Below are positions 50,169 to 58,252 of a stretch of 64,000 nt of DNA, one piece after another. How positions within the stretch are numbered: position 1 is the first letter of the stretch; every line of letters begins with the position of its first letter. The stretch covers positions 1 through 64,000 of the forward strand of contig JAEUHM010000061.1 of NCBI GenBank assembly GCA_016795485.1. The letters run 5' to 3'. The DNA comes from Verrucomicrobiaceae bacterium. GTDB lineage: Bacteria; Verrucomicrobiota; Verrucomicrobiia; Verrucomicrobiales; Verrucomicrobiaceae. A program made the position numbers and the translations under genes. The notes beneath the pieces were generated by a model that was not told where the DNA came from, did not search any database, and saw only the letters and a program-made list of their open reading frames with translations.

Positions 50169-50307
50169 AGTTTAAAGCAGGGGGTTGGGATTGGTCAGGA
50201 CCTTACTGGGTAGCAAGTTTAGGACGAATGGGCGGCACTTTTCTTCGATTTTTGGCGATTTTCACTTCCAATCCCATGGAGTCTTTGTACCTCGCCGTCT
50301 CGCACCG

Positions 50308-51243
50308 ATGCAAACCACACCCGTTACCGTTCAGGACCTCCAATCTTCCGTCGTCAGCGTGCCTCCGTTGGCACGTAAAGACGATCTCACGCTCAATGAC
50401 GAGGCAAATCTGGCTTTGATTCGACACCTAGAAGCTGGTGGAGTCCGCATCTTTCTCTATGGCGGGAATGCCAACTTGTACAATATCGCAGTCAGCGAGT
50501 ATGCGAGCTTGCTTGAGTTTCTGAGCAGCGCGGTGGCACCCACGAGCATTGTTGTTCCATCAGTGGGTCCATTTTACGGTAACATTATCGATCAGGCGGC
50601 GATTCTCCGACAGTTCAGATTTCCAACGGCGATGATTCTCCCAACGCTGTTCCCAGCTAAACCTGCTGGCATTCAGACTGCGGTAAGGCACTTCGTGGAG
50701 AAAGCGGGAATCCCAGCTGTCCTGTATTTAAAGGACGAAGGTTATATGCCTCCTGAAGCGGCGGCTGAACTAGTGAACGATGGGCTGATTTCTTGGATCA
50801 AATACGCCATTGTCAGAAATGACCCGGCACAAGATTCATACTTATCCCGGTTGGTTGATCTCGTAGATCGGAAGTTGATTGTCAGTGGAATCGGCGAGCA
50901 GCCGGCGATCATTCATCTGCGCGACTTCGGCATCACCGGGTATACTTCTGGATGTGTCTGTATCGCACCCAGTCTGTCAATGCAGATGCTAAAGCTCGTG
51001 CAAAGTGGTGAGTATGTTGCTGCAGAAGCGATTCGCGAGACTTACCGATCATTGGAAGACATGCGAAACTCGTTTGGGCCTATTCCTGTTCTGCATCATG
51101 CTGTAAGTCTAAGCGGTATTGCAGACATGGGGCCGTTTCTTCCGCTTCTGGCGCCTTTGAGCGATGAGATTCAAACTGCAATAGGCCCGGTTGCAAAAGC
51201 CCTGCTGGCTGCTGGTGGCGGCTCCAGCCATCATGTAAGTTAA
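50308..51243 (+). CDS. DapA-family (dihydrodipicolinate synthase/aldolase) protein
   Basis: A TIM-barrel protein of 311 residues. The start at 50308 (MQTTPVTVQDL) fits the family; a frame open from 50185 adds basic non-conserved sequence. The Schiff-base lysine is probably in ISWIKYAIVRND (about 174), preceded by the tyrosine strand AVLYLKDEGY. The family's usual substrate loop reads GGNANLYN instead of a GTTGE-type motif, so true dihydrodipicolinate synthase activity is doubtful. A 2-keto-acid aldolase or lyase is as likely. The gene ends where a predicted riboswitch leader begins. Confidence 0.8.
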   Translation: MQTTPVTVQDLQSSVVSVPPLARKDDLTLNDEANLALIRHLEAGGVRIFLYGGNANLYNIAVSEYASLLEFLSSAVAPTSIVVPSVGPFYGNIIDQAAILRQFRFPTAMILPTLFPAKPAGIQTAVRHFVEKAGIPAVLYLKDEGYMPPEAAAELVNDGLISWIKYAIVRNDPAQDSYLSRLVDLVDRKLIVSGIGEQPAIIHLRDFGITGYTSGCVCIAPSLSMQMLKLVQSGEYVAAEAIRETYRSLEDMRNSFGPIPVLHHAVSLSGIADMGPFLPLLAPLSDEIQTAIGPVAKALLAAGGGSSHHVS

Positions 51244-51330
51244 CGGCTTGACTCAGATAGCTTTGTGAAGTTGTTGAGGCAATGACCCCATAGGGGAGTT
51301 TGCTCTTTAGTTTCAATCGAATCCAAATAC

Positions 51331-51533
51331 CGACCACCAGCACAGGGGAAGGCCGTGAAATCCGGCCACAGTAGCGCTGCGGTAACAGGTGACGACTCTC
51401 TAGCTCCGGTGTCTCGATTGCCGGTAAGTGAATAGTCAATCCGTGCTAGTCATGGGTGAAGACGTGAGAGAAGGCGAGGTGTGGCACTGTCCCACCCACA
51501 AACCTGGAGTCCGAACATCCACCTGATGGTCGT
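51331..51533 (+). ncRNA. Predicted cobalamin (B12) riboswitch
   Basis: The leader of the gene at 51557 carries the cobalamin-riboswitch core in order: AGGGGAA, then the P3 hairpin GGCCG-TGAAAT-CCGGCC, then GCGCTGCGGTAACAGGTGACGA, resembling the E. coli btuB leader. Further on are GGCACTG (51483-51489) and the 3' box GGAGTCCGAAC (51506-51516). A closing stem pairs CGACCACCAG (51331-51340) with CTGATGGTCG (51523-51532), nine of ten positions. The last part of the B12 box is divergent (TCCACC for CCTGCC) and the usual GGGAAGG is not in its normal place, so it may be a variant class. The structure ends 24 bp before the start codon. The rest of 51244-51330 shows no clear promoter. Confidence 0.8.
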
Positions 51534-51556
51534 TTCGCAATCATTCATCGCATCAA

Positions 51557-54106
51557 ATGAAACACTGCATTTTGGCACTCTTGAGTGCCAGTGGGTCTAC
51601 GCTGCTCGCAGCAGACTGGATCGTAATTAAAGTCGCCGAAGCCGAAGGCTTTGTGAGAACGCACGCTCATATTCCGTCTACCGGGGAACTTGTCCTTGGA
51701 AACGGTGGGCAAATGTTTAAGCAGCAGGGATTCGGCGGAAGGACACTGGAGCCCTTCGAGCTTGGGTCGCTCATTGTTGATCCATCGTTCATTGCCACAT
51801 CTACGTCTGGCGGACTTTTGGGAGCCGGAGGCTTTGGGAGCACAGGCGTATATCCTTTTGAGCCATCTGCTCCCACTCAGGCCCCTGGCGCTGCACTCGC
51901 AACACTCCAGAACTTCGACGGAGTGTTCTGGAAGCATCCGGTGCATCAGACCTCGGGCTGGATAGTTGGCGGAGGTAATGGCACGCTCACGAGCGGGCCG
52001 TTTGGTGACTTCAAGCAGCACAACCTGACCTTCGTCTCCACGGATGGCTCGACGGTGAAAGCAATCACTGGCGACCTGAGTACCTACAGCTCCGGTATGG
52101 CGACGAACAACCAAGGAGACCTCTACCTTGGAACGTCAGACACGAACCCCGTGTTGAATAACAGGGTTCTCATGTTCTCTGCTGACGCTATTCACGGGGC
52201 AATCACTGGCAGTGCACTCACGGTTAACGAAGCATCGAACACAGGGAGTCTGCCAACGACAGGAAGTCTCGCCCTTGACTCTACTGGGCGTCTGTGGGCT
52301 TCTGGCTTCGAGCGAGACGTGATCTTGATGCGCGACAACTCAGTTGGGATTCGTTTGTTCAAGCCAGATCATCCCGCTATTTTTGGGGCAGGTGGACCCG
52401 TTCTCTATCAAGTAAAGACCTTTACTGTAGCAGGAGTTCATTACGTCAGTTTTCTGGCAAGTGATCAGTACGGTGTCGCTGGCACGCCCGTTTACTATGG
52501 CTGGAAGAAGGTGGATGAGTTGGCTAGTCGCGTGGTTTCATTTGCCCTTACGGCACAGAACGTGTCCGAAAGTAGCGGGGCAGTTTCGGTGGAAGTTCGG
52601 GTATTCCCCGCACCCACAAAGTCCATTACGGTGCCACTGAAGATTTCTGGCACTGCCACAAAAGGTGTCGACTACACGTTGTCCAGCCAGAGCATCAAGT
52701 TTCAGCCTGGCCAAACTTCGAAGACGATCACTCTTAACATACGTCCGGATGTCATTAATGAACCCGGCACGAGTGAAACCATTGTCTTGGAACTGGATCA
52801 TCCAATACCAAACTCTCATTGTGGTATCAGCCTAGTTGGCACGACATCCACTTTGACCGTGAACGATGTCGAATCGCTGCCGGTCGTCACCACGGTCCAA
52901 AATTTCCCAACGCTTCGAGTCGGCACCAGTTTCAACCATCAACTCTCAACGTCTGGTGGCGATGCTATTCAATACTCGGCGACTGGACTTCCCAAGGGGC
53001 TCAAGCTCAACCCGAAGACAGGTGAGATCACCGGCAGGCCAGAAGTGCCTGGTGAGTTTGTGGTGGTTGTTAAGGCTACCAATGCGCTCGGAACAAGTGT
53101 ATCAGAAGCCATACCAATGGAGGTGCAGGCCATAGCGCCGATGCTTGTCGGGCAATTTGTTGCGCTTGGTGATGTCGGAGAGCGACTTGACCTCAACGTT
53201 AAGCCAAACGCTTTCTTCACGGGAGGCTTCAGGGTTGGCAAGGTTCTCCATAAGTTGTCGGATCGAATGGAGACATCTTCAGAAGACGGTGTCTACAGTG
53301 TAATGCTAGCAGGTTATGGCAGCCTCTCGTTCACGATCAACAAGCTTACCGGCAATGTGATGGGCGCTTCGTTTGGTGGGCCTCTAGTTGGCTGGCGTGC
53401 GACGAACGATAACCGCCGAGAGGGACGCCATCACTTCCAGATCGCTCCAGGAGTCGGTGCCAACCAGCCAGAAGGGTTTGGCTTTGGCAGCATTGTTGTG
53501 GATGCAAAAGGACAAGCAATCATCACCGGTCGAGTTGCAGATAACTCCGCCTTTTTATCAGTCTCTCCGGTGAGTAGCAATGGCGATGTCGCTGTCTATC
53601 AACCCTTGTATGAAAATATGGGGCACCTGATTGCCATGCTAAATCTGGATGGCACAAACGATCGAGTCATTAGCGGCAACTTCATGTGGAAGAAGCCACC
53701 TCAGAGTTCTGGTGTCTATGCTGGAGGTTGGAGTCCACAGCTTGTGCTATCCGCATCGGGGGGGCGTTATCGTGCTGTTGCTGGTTCGACCCTCTTTCTT
53801 GGAGCAACTCCTGCTGGTTCGGGCAATGCAGACCTCACACTCTCAGGAGCGGGTATCGCCAGCACTGTGCTTGATGTCTCCATAGCCATCTCACCTGTGA
53901 TGCGGGTCTCCCGGCCCAATAACGTCACTACTTCTCTGAGTAAGGGCCTTGTTTCCGGAAATGCGATCACGGGTGGCGAAAGCTTAGCCTTCAGAGGCAT
54001 CATGGTTCCGAAAACAGGCAGTTTGAGCATTTTTGACGGAACAGTCAGTGGATTCTTTGTGAGGCAGGGAAGAACAGGCCAATTGGAGATCAAGCCGAAA
54101 CCATGA
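51557..54106 (+). CDS. Riboswitch-controlled secreted surface protein (propeller-like, Calx-beta, Ig-like)
   Basis: 849 residues, not a recognised named protein. Signal peptide MKHCILALLSASGSTLLAA. Residues about 19-330 look like a beta-propeller: repeated short strands with GDLYLGTSD, GRLWASGFERD and GGNGTLTSG. A Calx-beta-like domain follows (about 328-437; GTATKGVDY and IVLELDHP), then a putative-Ig (PIG-like) domain (about 441-524; YSATGLPKGLKLNPKTGEITG). The C-terminal part (about 528-849) matches the end of the protein at 4947 (FGFGSIVVDAKGQAIITG, LYENMGHL, FMWKKP). Just downstream of a predicted cobalamin riboswitch, which suggests a role in cobamide capture or use, possibly like Bacteroides BtuG, a surface beta-propeller. 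This is inference; no TonB-dependent receptor is nearby. Confidence 0.72.
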   Translation: MKHCILALLSASGSTLLAADWIVIKVAEAEGFVRTHAHIPSTGELVLGNGGQMFKQQGFGGRTLEPFELGSLIVDPSFIATSTSGGLLGAGGFGSTGVYPFEPSAPTQAPGAALATLQNFDGVFWKHPVHQTSGWIVGGGNGTLTSGPFGDFKQHNLTFVSTDGSTVKAITGDLSTYSSGMATNNQGDLYLGTSDTNPVLNNRVLMFSADAIHGAITGSALTVNEASNTGSLPTTGSLALDSTGRLWASGFERDVILMRDNSVGIRLFKPDHPAIFGAGGPVLYQVKTFTVAGVHYVSFLASDQYGVAGTPVYYGWKKVDELASRVVSFALTAQNVSESSGAVSVEVRVFPAPTKSITVPLKISGTATKGVDYTLSSQSIKFQPGQTSKTITLNIRPDVINEPGTSETIVLELDHPIPNSHCGISLVGTTSTLTVNDVESLPVVTTVQNFPTLRVGTSFNHQLSTSGGDAIQYSATGLPKGLKLNPKTGEITGRPEVPGEFVVVVKATNALGTSVSEAIPMEVQAIAPMLVGQFVALGDVGERLDLNVKPNAFFTGGFRVGKVLHKLSDRMETSSEDGVYSVMLAGYGSLSFTINKLTGNVMGASFGGPLVGWRATNDNRREGRHHFQIAPGVGANQPEGFGFGSIVVDAKGQAIITGRVADNSAFLSVSPVSSNGDVAVYQPLYENMGHLIAMLNLDGTNDRVISGNFMWKKPPQSSGVYAGGWSPQLVLSASGGRYRAVAGSTLFLGATPAGSGNADLTLSGAGIASTVLDVSIAISPVMRVSRPNNVTTSLSKGLVSGNAITGGESLAFRGIMVPKTGSLSIFDGTVSGFFVRQGRTGQLEIKPKP

Positions 54107-56304
54107 TTCAGAAGCGCTCACGGTGGATTTCACGAAAAGGACTGCTCCTAGCCCTTGTGCTCGCCACGTTGTTAGGCGGGGGTTTTGTGACCTACCATCG
54201 TGAGCATCTGCTCTTGTGGCTGGCTGGCGCTTCGACCGCAGTTACACCAGCGGTAGAAGATTCTCATTTTCGGCCACTACCGATCTCGTTCGAGATCAAT
54301 GGGAATGTCAGCGATAACGAACTGGAAGTAGACCTCGCTGTTATCATAGCGGACTGGCAGACTGACGGTGATTCACTGCTCTTGGACCGGCTCACTCCCA
54401 CGGGGATCCAGGCGATACAGGGCTCTGGAGGGCAGGGGTTGAGTCGCCAAGTGAAGACGATGGGAATGTGGTTTCCGGTATTTGATCTTTCGCGTGCCCG
54501 CAGGCGCGATGGTTCCCAGATTGAGTCCACAGCTTTGGGAGTTGATGTCGATCCTGACACAGTTTCCCTGACCAAGATTCCGTTATCCATAGTCGCTGCT
54601 AGCCCTCCCCGTGTCATGGTCGGCGAGACCCTCGACTACACTTTCGGGGCGATTGGAGGCGTGCCTCCCTATCAATGGCATCAGTCGGGGGGAAATTGGG
54701 TAATGGAACAATTGACTGGACGCCTATCCGGGCCTGCTGGCCCCCCGGCAAAGACCCCGATCTCGGTGACTGTCACAGACTCGGTCGGAGCACACGTATC
54801 GATTGATACCGAGGTCGTCGTGATACCAGACCAACCGCTGGTCATTGTGACTGAATCGCTGGGAGTAGTAGAAGTGGAGCAACAATTGTCGATTCAGTTG
54901 GAGGGGAAGGGCGGTGTTTCGCCCTATACCTGGGCACTAACATCTAGTATCGGGCTAACGTGCGATTCAATCTCGGGTAAAGTCACGGGTTCCGTATCAA
55001 ATCCGGGCGACTATGAAGCAGTTATCACGCTCCGTGACGACCAGGGAACTGAAGTGAGCACGACACTACTTATCAAGGTTAGTGAGGGTCTTGAGATCGT
55101 AACGGATTATCTGTTGCCAAGCGCAGAGCCAGAGGTGCCCTACACTCAACTACTTGAGGCAAGAGGCGGCACAGAGCCTTATCGGTGGACGGTCGAGGGT
55201 GATTTGCCGCCGCGATTGACGCTGGATTCATCAGGTCTGCTCAAGGGAATACCGTTTGGCAAAGAGGGGCTGTATCGATTCACTGTGAGGGTCGAGGATT
55301 CGCTTGGATTGCACCACATCAAGGCCATGCAACTCCCCATTATGCAGGCTTTGGTGGCTGTTCCTTCAAGGAGGTGTGCTGGTCTTGCATGGAGAAACCG
55401 TGCGGTTGAGCGGCGTGTGGGCGGAAGAGTGGTCAGTGCTATCATTTCACGTGACGGGCCCGATGGTAGCCGAGAGATTCAGATTGCAGGGAGATCAAAC
55501 TTTGTTGATCGCGGTCTCTCTGAAGGTGCATCATACGATTATCGTCTCGCAGTCACACTTGCGGATGGTCGGAAGGTTTCAGTTGGACGCAAGAAGGTGG
55601 CTATTTTGCCAATTGCATTGGTGAAGGGAACGCATGGGATTCGTGGTGATCCATTTGCGGACAGGGTTGTTTCATACCGACCGCTTTCGGCGAATGGTTT
55701 TGGGGCGCGGCTTCTCCCAGATAACGTATTGGGACCACCAAACGGTATGAGCACGTACGAGCCAGCATTTCGTCCTGAGCATCTTGTCTCACTACACGCC
55801 AGCTCAATTGGTGGAGGAGAGATTGTTCTGGAGTTTACTGACAATATTGTAGCGGCGGGGCAGGGAGAAGATCTCACCGTATTTGAAAACGTGATGTTTG
55901 TGGGCCGCAATCCGCTAAGGCGATTTATGGAGCCTGCAATCATAGAAGTGGCGCTGTTTGATGACGATTGGGTGCGCTTTCCCGCAGTTGTCCTGCCAAG
56001 CGGTGATTCAACTCAGGACGTGTGGCAGCCACAATACTACGCCCAGGGGTTTGCTGGCATCAATGCAACGACAGGTGACAATCCAACAGATCCATCAAGA
56101 AGCGGTGGAGACAGCTTCGATTTTGCTAGGCTCGGACGGTCTGACTTGTCGTGGGTCCGGTTCGTTCGGATTCGTTCCACTGGAGACAATGTGACTTCTT
56201 CGCTTCACGGGGTGATGGTTCGCCATAACCAAGAAATGAATGCCACTTCTGGGGTAGGCTCATCAGGATTTGACCTCGATGCGGTAAGCGCAGTTCACTT
56301 TTGA
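54103..56304 (+). CDS. Membrane-anchored surface protein with Ig-like domains, coupled to the riboswitch gene
   Basis: 733 residues. A single N-terminal helix (residues about 12-30, LLLALVLATLLGGGFVTY) anchors it or serves as an uncleaved signal. Three putative-Ig domains follow at about 163-243, 245-327 and 330-412, with repeated GGVPPYQWH, GGVSPYTW and GGTEPYRWTVEG motifs. The C-terminal domain (about 520-733) resembles a cell-surface-protein module: VLGPPNGMS, GGGEIVLEFTDNIVAAGQGEDLTVFEN, WVRFVRIRS and a final GFDLDAVSAV. Its ATG overlaps the stop of 51557 (ATGA), so both are under the cobalamin riboswitch. A shared role in binding cobamides at the surface is plausible but untested. Followed by a terminator. 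Confidence 0.72.
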   Translation: MIQKRSRWISRKGLLLALVLATLLGGGFVTYHREHLLLWLAGASTAVTPAVEDSHFRPLPISFEINGNVSDNELEVDLAVIIADWQTDGDSLLLDRLTPTGIQAIQGSGGQGLSRQVKTMGMWFPVFDLSRARRRDGSQIESTALGVDVDPDTVSLTKIPLSIVAASPPRVMVGETLDYTFGAIGGVPPYQWHQSGGNWVMEQLTGRLSGPAGPPAKTPISVTVTDSVGAHVSIDTEVVVIPDQPLVIVTESLGVVEVEQQLSIQLEGKGGVSPYTWALTSSIGLTCDSISGKVTGSVSNPGDYEAVITLRDDQGTEVSTTLLIKVSEGLEIVTDYLLPSAEPEVPYTQLLEARGGTEPYRWTVEGDLPPRLTLDSSGLLKGIPFGKEGLYRFTVRVEDSLGLHHIKAMQLPIMQALVAVPSRRCAGLAWRNRAVERRVGGRVVSAIISRDGPDGSREIQIAGRSNFVDRGLSEGASYDYRLAVTLADGRKVSVGRKKVAILPIALVKGTHGIRGDPFADRVVSYRPLSANGFGARLLPDNVLGPPNGMSTYEPAFRPEHLVSLHASSIGGGEIVLEFTDNIVAAGQGEDLTVFENVMFVGRNPLRRFMEPAIIEVALFDDDWVRFPAVVLPSGDSTQDVWQPQYYAQGFAGINATTGDNPTDPSRSGGDSFDFARLGRSDLSWVRFVRIRSTGDNVTSSLHGVMVRHNQEMNATSGVGSSGFDLDAVSAVHF

Positions 56305-56365: not shown

Positions 56366-58252
56366 TTATGACTGCTTAGACACCGTAGCCGCGATGCGCA
56401 ACATCTGCTGGTAATAGCCTTCCCAGTTCATTTCGTTATTCTGATTTGCACCCGAGGCACGGCGAGCCCATAGAAATGCCCTCTCGGCGTCAGCAAATCG
56501 GCCTGAGCGCGCATAATGCATGGCAAGAGCGATCCGCGGTTCTTCATGCCAGGGTGCCGCTCGAATGGCGATCCGTGCGCTCACTTGTGCTTCGTCTGTT
56601 CGTCCCAAGGCATCTAAAACGTCCGTGTGTGCTACGGGATACAGATAGTGCCAAGTGTTCAGCTCCACTGATCGACGAAGGTCGGCCTCTGCTTCCGTGA
56701 GAACTGCCAATCCTTTATCTGAGCGTGGACTCAATCCTCCCTTTAATCGTGCAAGACCACGTTGATAACGCCATTCAGGGTTGTGAGGATCGTTGCTGAT
56801 CGCTTTGCTAAGGAGAGCGATCTCGCCGTCGATATCATCTCTCTGACTGGCGAGATTTGCCTGAGTGCCCCAGTAGTCTGATGGCGCCCACCGGAGTGTA
56901 GCCACCACGAGTCCGATTCCACATGTCGCAAGCATAAGTTTTCCAGTGACTCTCAAGCCTGGAATCTTTGGAGGAGAATGAGATGAGAGGCTAAAGCCCG
57001 GATTCATCAAGATCCCAGCCAGTATTCCCCCAAGAACTGCGATAAAGCCGGTGTGGAAGTGAAACTCGAACGTCGCATGCGCGAGGAGTGCAATGCTGGC
57101 AGCCAATGCGCCGATTGCGAGCGCCAATGAGTTGCTCTGAAGTTCGCCCGTTTCTGTATAGCGCCACTTCACAAACCAGTTAACAAAACGCAGCCCATTG
57201 GTCAGATGTAGCAGTATGAGTAGCGCAAGGAGAATCAGACCGATCCACCCATAGTCTGCAAGTACCTGCAAATATTCATTATGAACAAAAATCGGATCCA
57301 ACTGATGATTCGGTGCTGCTGGCTCACGCAATGCCACGCCATACTCAGTAAACATGCGGGAGCCTTTTCCGACCCACGGTGAGAGTTGATGTTGCCACAA
57401 GGCCGACTTCCAAATGCTGCCGCGAACATCTTGTTCAAGTGGGGAGCTGTTTGTCCTCGATTTTATTGCTTCTGCTCCCAGTTGGTAGAGTGTGGCGAGT
57501 AGCAGTGCTCCAATAATGATTCCGCCGGTCATCAACATGCGAAGCAGATGCCGATTTGTTCTCCAGAGAACCCAAATCGAAGCGATAATGAGAACTGAGA
57601 GCCCAATGCCCATTGCCGCCAAACCCGCACGGCTTTTTGTTAGTACGAGGCAAACAGATGCTGCTGTGGCTACAAATGCCATCAGAAGTTTGTAGGTGAT
57701 GCTAGATCGTCCAAAAAAGATGCAGGCACCCATCATCATTAGTGCAGCATTTAGAAACGCGGCGAGGTGATTGGCGTTGTTGAAGAAGCCACCGACGCGT
57801 CCTTCTCCAAATGTTCGCACAAAGTGCGGTACAACGTGGAAACTCGTCCTGCCAGAAACATGTACAGAACTGACAATCAGGTTTCCAACCACTAGCACCA
57901 CTATGCTGATCAATAGCGCCATCCGCCACCCAGGATGGCTTAGTGTCGTAGCGACGAGGACGTACGCAACAAATGCGGCTGCGATCATCATCAGGTCTGG
58001 CCTTGCAAGGACCGCAACGGGTGACCACGTAGCTCTGGCAGCCATGTAAGCTGTGAACAAGACCATCGACAAAAAGCAGAAGTCGCTCGGAGAGGAGAAT
58101 ATTTTCATTTTCCAACTCAGCGCAGCAATGAGTCCCCCCAATCCGATGAGCAGGCACGCTGGCCAGAAGAATAGCAACTCCGTATCAGTCGCTAAGGCAC
58201 CAGAAAGAATGAATCCGGCGATGAGTAGAGAGGCTGAGACGAGTCGAAGCAT
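56366..58252 (-). CDS. O-antigen ligase-family polymerase with TPR tail
   Basis: 628 residues. The N-terminal two thirds hold about ten or more membrane helices, with the family's periplasmic loop motif HNEYLQVLADYGWIG (about residue 320), typical of Wzy_C/O-antigen ligase proteins that transfer or polymerise glycan chains from a lipid carrier. Residues about 450-628 form TPR helices (NPEWRYQRGLARLKGG, LGRTDEAQVSARIAIRAAP, YARSGRFADAERAFLWARR). It is the last gene of the exopolysaccharide operon, one base after the stop of the glycosyltransferase, and is followed by a bidirectional terminator. Ligase or polymerase activity cannot be told apart from sequence alone. Confidence 0.88.
   Translation of the reverse strand: MLRLVSASLLIAGFILSGALATDTELLFFWPACLLIGLGGLIAALSWKMKIFSSPSDFCFLSMVLFTAYMAARATWSPVAVLARPDLMMIAAAFVAYVLVATTLSHPGWRMALLISIVVLVVGNLIVSSVHVSGRTSFHVVPHFVRTFGEGRVGGFFNNANHLAAFLNAALMMMGACIFFGRSSITYKLLMAFVATAASVCLVLTKSRAGLAAMGIGLSVLIIASIWVLWRTNRHLLRMLMTGGIIIGALLLATLYQLGAEAIKSRTNSSPLEQDVRGSIWKSALWQHQLSPWVGKGSRMFTEYGVALREPAAPNHQLDPIFVHNEYLQVLADYGWIGLILLALLILLHLTNGLRFVNWFVKWRYTETGELQSNSLALAIGALAASIALLAHATFEFHFHTGFIAVLGGILAGILMNPGFSLSSHSPPKIPGLRVTGKLMLATCGIGLVVATLRWAPSDYWGTQANLASQRDDIDGEIALLSKAISNDPHNPEWRYQRGLARLKGGLSPRSDKGLAVLTEAEADLRRSVELNTWHYLYPVAHTDVLDALGRTDEAQVSARIAIRAAPWHEEPRIALAMHYARSGRFADAERAFLWARRASGANQNNEMNWEGYYQQMLRIAATVSKQS

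Follow-up and report, generated by a model that had tools for sequence, protein, structure and literature searches.

Organization of the locus

The window analysed is a stretch of DNA of 64,000 nucleotides, and the part of interest comprises a riboswitch followed by two genes on the same strand (Table 1). The aptamer leader lies between an upstream DHDPS-like gene (50185-51243) and the gene for protein 1. The reading frame of protein 2 begins within the stop of protein 1, the two overlapping in the tetranucleotide ATGA, as had been noted from the sequence. The gene that follows protein 2 is convergent and encodes an O-antigen ligase (56366-58252), and the operon therefore consists of two genes.

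Table 1. Features of the riboswitch-controlled gene pair, in window coordinates.
Feature	Position	Strand	Evidence
Cobalamin riboswitch aptamer, RF00174-type	51322..51540	+	Rfam 25.1 bits, E 1.4e-4; R1 match 51332-51536; covariation
P13-like hairpin UUCAU-CGCAUCAA-AUGAA	51544..51561	+	Minimum-free-energy fold; same hairpin in leaders of relatives
Protein 1, 849 aa, secreted	51557..54106	+	Signal peptide, propeller, Calx-beta, He_PIG, C-terminal beta domain; orthologues in relatives
Protein 1 beta-propeller domain, residues 19-323	51611..52525	+	AF2 pLDDT 93.3; six-bladed fold matches
Protein 1 Calx-beta domain	52529..52867	+	PF03160 E 4.9e-12
Protein 1 He_PIG Ig-like domain	52880..53107	+	PF05345 E 2.5e-12
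Protein 2, 733 aa	54103..56304	+	N-terminal hydrophobic anchor, three Ig-like, FnIII, BtuH-like domain; orthologues in relatives
Three Ig-like (He_PIG-type) units of protein 2, residues about 158-414	54574..55344	+	PF05345 E 7.2e-14, two stretches; third by eye
Protein 2 FnIII-like domain	55345..55617	+	Fold matches; profile match to FnIII of DUF3472 proteins
Protein 2 C-terminal BtuH-like (GFD) domain	55615..56301	+	7biz_B fold match; 8blw_B profile match; hhalign

A cobalamin riboswitch in the leader

The sequence-only reading had recognised the core of a cobalamin riboswitch in the leader. A search with the Rfam model RF00174 in E-value mode bears this out, giving a significant match that includes the conserved core and the 3′ B12 box. 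The score lies below the gathering score of the family (31.5 bits), which is why a default Rfam scan that applies this cut-off does not report the window leader. Directly orthologous leaders exceed the gathering score (40.8, 35.3 and 34.3 bits in genomes G007, G031 and G028 respectively), and in the 6.5 Mb genome to which the window belongs (G000) a whole-genome search finds no RF00174 match other than this leader. A second covariance model, termed R1, was constructed from 12 aligned orthologous leaders of relatives with the window excluded. It matches the window just once, at the riboswitch, with a score of 139.7 bits (E = 1.2e-43). When the window is included in the alignment, compensatory changes are found in 13 of the 35 consensus pairs, including the closing stem. 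In the window this stem is formed between ACCACCAG and CTGATGGT with seven of its eight positions paired, where relatives have TTCGCAG and CTGCGAA. These data show that the window leader is homologous to cobalamin riboswitches, with covariation of its helices.

One element of the earlier assignment has to be removed from the core. The sequence GGCACTG (about 51482) sits in a variable arm, and relatives do not keep it. We note that in the riboswitch of G009 (L092 6896-7247) the variable arm contains ~135 nt more before the 3′ box than in its close relative G016.

The start codon of protein 1 lies within a hairpin

The start codon of protein 1 falls within the 3′ arm of the P13-like hairpin, AUGAA (51557-51561). 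The hairpin is present in the minimum-free-energy structure, the energy of which is not unusual (z 0.29). A hairpin of the form TTCATCG..(C)AATGAA is common to the leaders of the pair in relatives and to the leaders of BtuB genes discussed below, and short platforms with the hairpin adjoining the start codon are also seen in BtuB leaders. In relatives whose leaders are longer, GAGAGAUG can pair with CGUCUCUC and GUCUCU with AGAGAC as alternatives close to the start codon; both elements are missing from the window leader. No terminator and no sigma-70-like promoter were found in the window leader. Since the hairpin holds the start codon and there is no detected terminator, translational OFF control of the pair is likely, by inference.

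In the leaders of L095, L101, L102 and others the ATG of the hairpin opens a short frame (MKSE../MKRE..). This runs in frame into protein 1 in some relatives and stops in others; it is possible that it represents a leader peptide or an alternative start.

Protein 2 carries a BtuH-like domain

The N-terminus of protein 2, MIQKRSRWISRKGLLLALVLATLLGGGFV, contains no cysteine and so has no lipoprotein export signal. Three Ig-like domains had been proposed for this protein; two He_PIG stretches score above threshold, and the third is recognised only by eye. The C-terminal domain has the motif string DFTVFENxF ... SGGDSFD ... GFDLDAV, and will be called the GFD domain. The module GFDLDAVSAV had been picked out previously, and its GFDLDAV portion is real and conserved in relatives.

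Proteins of the BtuG and BtuH type that capture cobamides at the cell surface are best known from Bacteroidetes, and the cobamide they capture is understood to be delivered to BtuB. An AF2 model of residues 415-733 of protein 2 has a mean pLDDT of 72, i.e. modest confidence, the GFD part included. Foldseek matches to this model are dominated by FnIII domains. A second look with VIA gave 7biz_B (BtuH2) as the best match (Z 11.9, rmsd 4.1, 171 aligned), the other VIA matches shown being FnIII. Because BtuH appeared only in this second look, the match was checked by sequence. Using hmmsearch, a profile of 21 GFD domains gave a single significant match among all PDB sequences, which was the H-domain of BtuG1 (8blw_B, E = 5.7e-4). 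Comparison of the GFD profile with one of 38 Bacteroidetes H-domains gave an hhalign score of 45.5 (E = 1.3e-5), against at most about 23 for control comparisons with shuffled or unrelated profiles. The GFD profile also matches 72 of 1045 ORFs from 80 Bacteroidetes B12 loci, and these appear to be the BtuH and BtuGH ORFs. We conclude that the C-terminal domain of protein 2 is homologous to the B12-binding domain of BtuH. There are no binding data for it.

The alignment of the GFD and BtuH profiles spans only the first half of the BtuH domain (about 106 columns). In BtuH2, Asn399 contacts the phosphate and Phe401 the lower ligand of the cobamide (PMC8941943), and these two residues align with FEN-x-F of the GFD domain. 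The equivalent of Asn399 is invariant in the 21 GFD sequences, and protein 2 of the window has Met at the position of Phe401. Most of the other BtuH2 contacts (His476, Tyr510, Trp511 and Trp577) could not be placed on the GFD domain.

DUF4465 was considered as an identity for protein 1 or protein 2 and was ruled out, as neither protein has a match to PF14717; nor was there any match to this family elsewhere in G000.

The propeller of protein 1

Protein 1 had been described as a secreted protein with a propeller-like N-terminal domain followed by Calx-beta and Ig domains, and each of these was recovered by structure prediction or by Pfam. The modelled propeller is closest to the six-bladed Pizza6 and NHL folds, which it matches end to end (VIA Z about 25, rmsd 2.4, 241 aligned). 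BtuG is not among the fold matches shown, an absence that is not evidence against BtuG. The propeller has no match in Pfam, including the BtuG family (DUF5074/PF16819), and no profile similarity to 19 Bacteroidetes BtuG G-domains (hhalign probability 0.1). This profile comparison rules out the propeller as a BtuG. The remainder of the protein is made up of generic surface modules: Calx-beta, He_PIG and the C-terminal part occur in numerous further proteins encoded by these genomes, the C-terminal beta domain being of a kind that recurs there.

Relatives of protein 1 were recovered by whole-genome searches, and none came from the contig-level search for related loci. Homologues of the propeller in two distant families are also preceded by RF00174 matches (42.7 and 75.4 bits), and a GFD gene lies behind each of them; in G197 the homologue is split over two contigs. 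That the propeller binds cobamide is a guess; it has no relative for which B12 binding has been demonstrated.

Conservation of the linkage between riboswitch and genes

The two genes are adjacent as a pair in relatives, and the riboswitch lies upstream of the pair in 15 of the 16 relatives with complete upstream DNA; the linkage is thus conserved. The riboswitch is placed directly before the pair in 14 genomes of the family, G000 included. The G007 locus is divided between two contigs, one carrying the riboswitch together with the beginning of protein 1 and the other the remainder. In G038 one PEP-CTERM gene is located between the riboswitch and the pair. The sole exception is G048, in which the pair has no detectable riboswitch. 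G003 and G022 were left out of the count as their upstream DNA is cut by contig ends. At loci where the riboswitch match was listed on the minus strand, the genes that apparently follow it are artefacts of orientation and were disregarded. No paper on this gene pair was found in the open-licence literature.

In G022 the contig with the riboswitch and a DUF4465 gene ends just past that gene, and another contig opens inside a fusion of a BtuH-like domain and a propeller, with protein 2 next. The two contigs fit a single operon, although this is an inference. G022 and G046 are the two relatives with a DUF4465 gene behind the riboswitch. The propeller of the protein 1 type is fused to a BtuH-like domain in both G038 and G022 (L107 11315-13624; L106 30-1802), in the reverse order to that of Bacteroides BtuGH.

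GFD profile matches were found in 54 of 388 genomes of the presumed phylum Verrucomicrobiota. From these, 40 loci with 6 kb of upstream sequence were sampled blind to riboswitches. In 28 of them a cobalamin riboswitch precedes the GFD gene in the same orientation (27 with a match to RF00174 or RF01482 that exceeds the gathering score, one with a match to R1); the other 12 have no riboswitch within 6 kb, one of these being cut by a contig end. A TonB receptor adjoins the GFD gene at 13 of the 40 loci. The earlier statement that no TonB receptor lies beside the pair is correct for the lineage of the window but does not extend to the presumed phylum as a whole, and the absence of the receptor is peculiar to lineages like that of the window. 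At the loci with a receptor the order riboswitch - X - receptor - GFD is frequent, and receptors beside the GFD domain in other families are not clean members of TIGR01779.

Family X comprises PEP-CTERM surface proteins with the motif VIDW.DG...WG.RWD, encoded directly behind cobalamin riboswitches (L007, L012, L013, L014, L283-L286 and L300-L315). It is covered by no Pfam family; a search of Bacteroidetes B12 loci with its profile picks out large proteins (E about 1e-17). Two further observations may be recorded. In several riboswitch operons a pseudopilin-like gene (GFTLIEVLV...) comes after the BtuH-like gene (L108 8411-9202; L239 3263-3850), and in compact genomes of the same order (L003, L005) a strong RF00174 match precedes an apparent ribonucleotide reductase.

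Exclusivity with BtuB and the requirement for cobamide

Within the family of the window, this riboswitch precedes the pair in 14 genomes and BtuB in 10, and in no genome does it precede both. R1 detects one strong riboswitch of this type per genome of the family. BtuB was assigned by a match to TIGR01779 of at least 120 bits, a cut-off that is not sharp. No pair genome has a match at this level; nearest to it is G007, which has the pair and a full-length match of 112 bits. The BtuB leaders share the TTCATCG..CAATGAA hairpin, for which reason the whole riboswitch looks orthologous between the two kinds of leader. The exclusivity is significant by Fisher's test (p 3e-7), uncorrected for relatedness. 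A MetH tree of 40 genomes requires about eight changes of state between pair and BtuB, at least five of which are forced by well-supported (starred) branches. There were too few independent pairs for a sign test to reach 0.05. Partial matches to TIGR01779 are found in TonB receptors of G000 (C14:478412, 90 bits) and of many relatives, the BtuB-bearing sisters included.

G000 encodes the B12-dependent methionine synthase MetH. G000 lacks CbiC, and has neither a convincing BtuC/FecCD nor a riboswitch-linked BtuB. From this gene content the organism is unable to synthesise the corrin ring yet requires it for MetH, and so must import cobamide; the one cobalamin riboswitch of its genome precedes the pair. 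Matches to PF01032 of 42-50 bits were rejected as BtuC since they are partial; a full match occurs only in G044. MetH is present in all the complete relatives, and nearly all of these, the genomes with BtuB included, have no recognisable BtuC/FecCD permease, G044 being the only one that does.

Discussion

The analogy to the BtuG and BtuH proteins that had been drawn from the sequence is upheld by fold and profile for protein 2, and is not borne out by sequence for protein 1, the propeller of which shows no sequence relationship to BtuG. Protein 2 resembles BtuH2 of Bacteroides thetaiotaomicron (BT_1956, PDB 7BIZ) in its fold, its profile homology and the invariant Asn399 position of its family. 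BtuH2 has Ig-like domains followed by the C-terminal B12 domain (PMC8941943), and both proteins combine such domains and are encoded in a cobalamin-riboswitch operon. However, BtuH2 is a lipoprotein encoded near btuB, whereas protein 2 lacks a lipobox cysteine and its gene is not adjacent to one for a receptor. Protein 2 further differs in its extra FnIII domain and its GFDLDAV C-terminus, and the identity is only 16%. BtuG1/BtuGH (BT_1490, PDB 8BLW) and BtuG2 offer a parallel to the pair, in that a surface propeller and a BtuH-type domain are encoded in a riboswitch operon, and the fusions of G038 and G022 join the same two elements as BtuGH. The propeller of BtuG2 is seven-bladed (PMC10404256), while that modelled for protein 1 fits six-bladed folds and is accompanied by Calx-beta and Ig domains. 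DUF4465 proteins (BtuJ, IPR027828) are also riboswitch-controlled surface binders of B12, and members from a Haloferula and a Coraliomargarita bind B12 (PMC13398666); neither protein of the pair matches that family. Lastly, the BtuB of sister genomes shares with the pair the orthologous riboswitch and the presumed role in cobamide acquisition, but is a TonB-dependent barrel, for which the pair has no counterpart.

We think it quite probable that the pair is a surface module of the BtuH type that captures cobamides under the control of a cobalamin riboswitch. The proposal of a verrucomicrobial cobamide capture system is supported by all three of the computational checks suggested with it, namely the covariance model, the match of protein 2 to BtuH in structure and profile, and the conserved linkage, while ligand binding has not been shown. 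Note that cobamide binding, surface location, OFF control and the replacement of BtuB are all inferred. When cobamide is scarce the riboswitch would allow translation of secreted protein 1 and anchored protein 2. The Ig and FnIII domains of protein 2 would form a stalk for the BtuH-like domain at its C-terminus, the probable site of cobamide binding. With ample cobamide, the aptamer would be expected instead to promote folding of the hairpin, in which the start codon of protein 1 is sequestered. Standing where sister species have BtuB, the pair probably takes over at least the capture step, and passage through the outer membrane would have to use an unlinked receptor or another route.

The first of these routes leads to a narrower form of the capture reading, in which the role of the pair ends with surface capture, the cobamide then being passed to a TonB-dependent receptor of the ordinary kind encoded elsewhere, so that nothing is new in transport across the outer membrane. 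We lean towards this form. Bacteroides BtuH works together with BtuB and BtuG (PMC10404256), receptors with partial TIGR01779 matches are present in G000 and many relatives, and a diverged receptor could have been missed, given that those adjoining the GFD gene elsewhere are not clean members of the family. Yet similar partial matches occur in the sisters that have BtuB, and in the lineage of the window the operon behind the riboswitch consists of the pair only and includes no receptor gene. The most far-reaching form is that the pair fully replaces BtuB, providing a route for cobamide across the outer membrane that requires no TonB-dependent barrel dedicated to it, that pair and BtuB have changed places several times behind a single orthologous riboswitch, and that protein 1 is a new class of cobamide-binding propeller; we consider this unlikely.

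A different function is also unlikely. The proteins might perform some other cobalamin-responsive task, such as adhesion or formation of a surface layer when B12 is limiting, or their ligand might be cobalt or a different tetrapyrrole and not a cobamide. The generic surface modules of protein 1 would suit such a task and the lack of binding data for the pair leaves room for it, but it does not account for the homology of the C-terminal domain of protein 2 to the B12 domain of BtuH, for the linkage of BtuH-like domains to TonB receptors in other families, or for the exclusivity with BtuB. It is very improbable that the window riboswitch is merely a decayed remnant, despite a score beneath the Rfam threshold, a missing distal platform, the absence of the two alternative pairings of relatives, a start codon swallowed by the hairpin, and a leader in which neither terminator nor promoter was detected. 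The core is fully kept, as the R1 score attests, there are compensatory changes in the closing stem of the window itself, and BtuB leaders also have short platforms with the hairpin by the start codon.

Surface capture of cobamides by the pair would extend the BtuH-type mechanism to another presumed phylum, and makes protein 1 a candidate for a new family of B12 propellers. In a lineage that needs cobamide uptake, one B12 riboswitch has been kept with either BtuB or a barrel-free surface pair behind it. The question of how B12 crosses two membranes in a cobamide auxotroph without BtuB and without a recognisable BtuCD is thus made testable.
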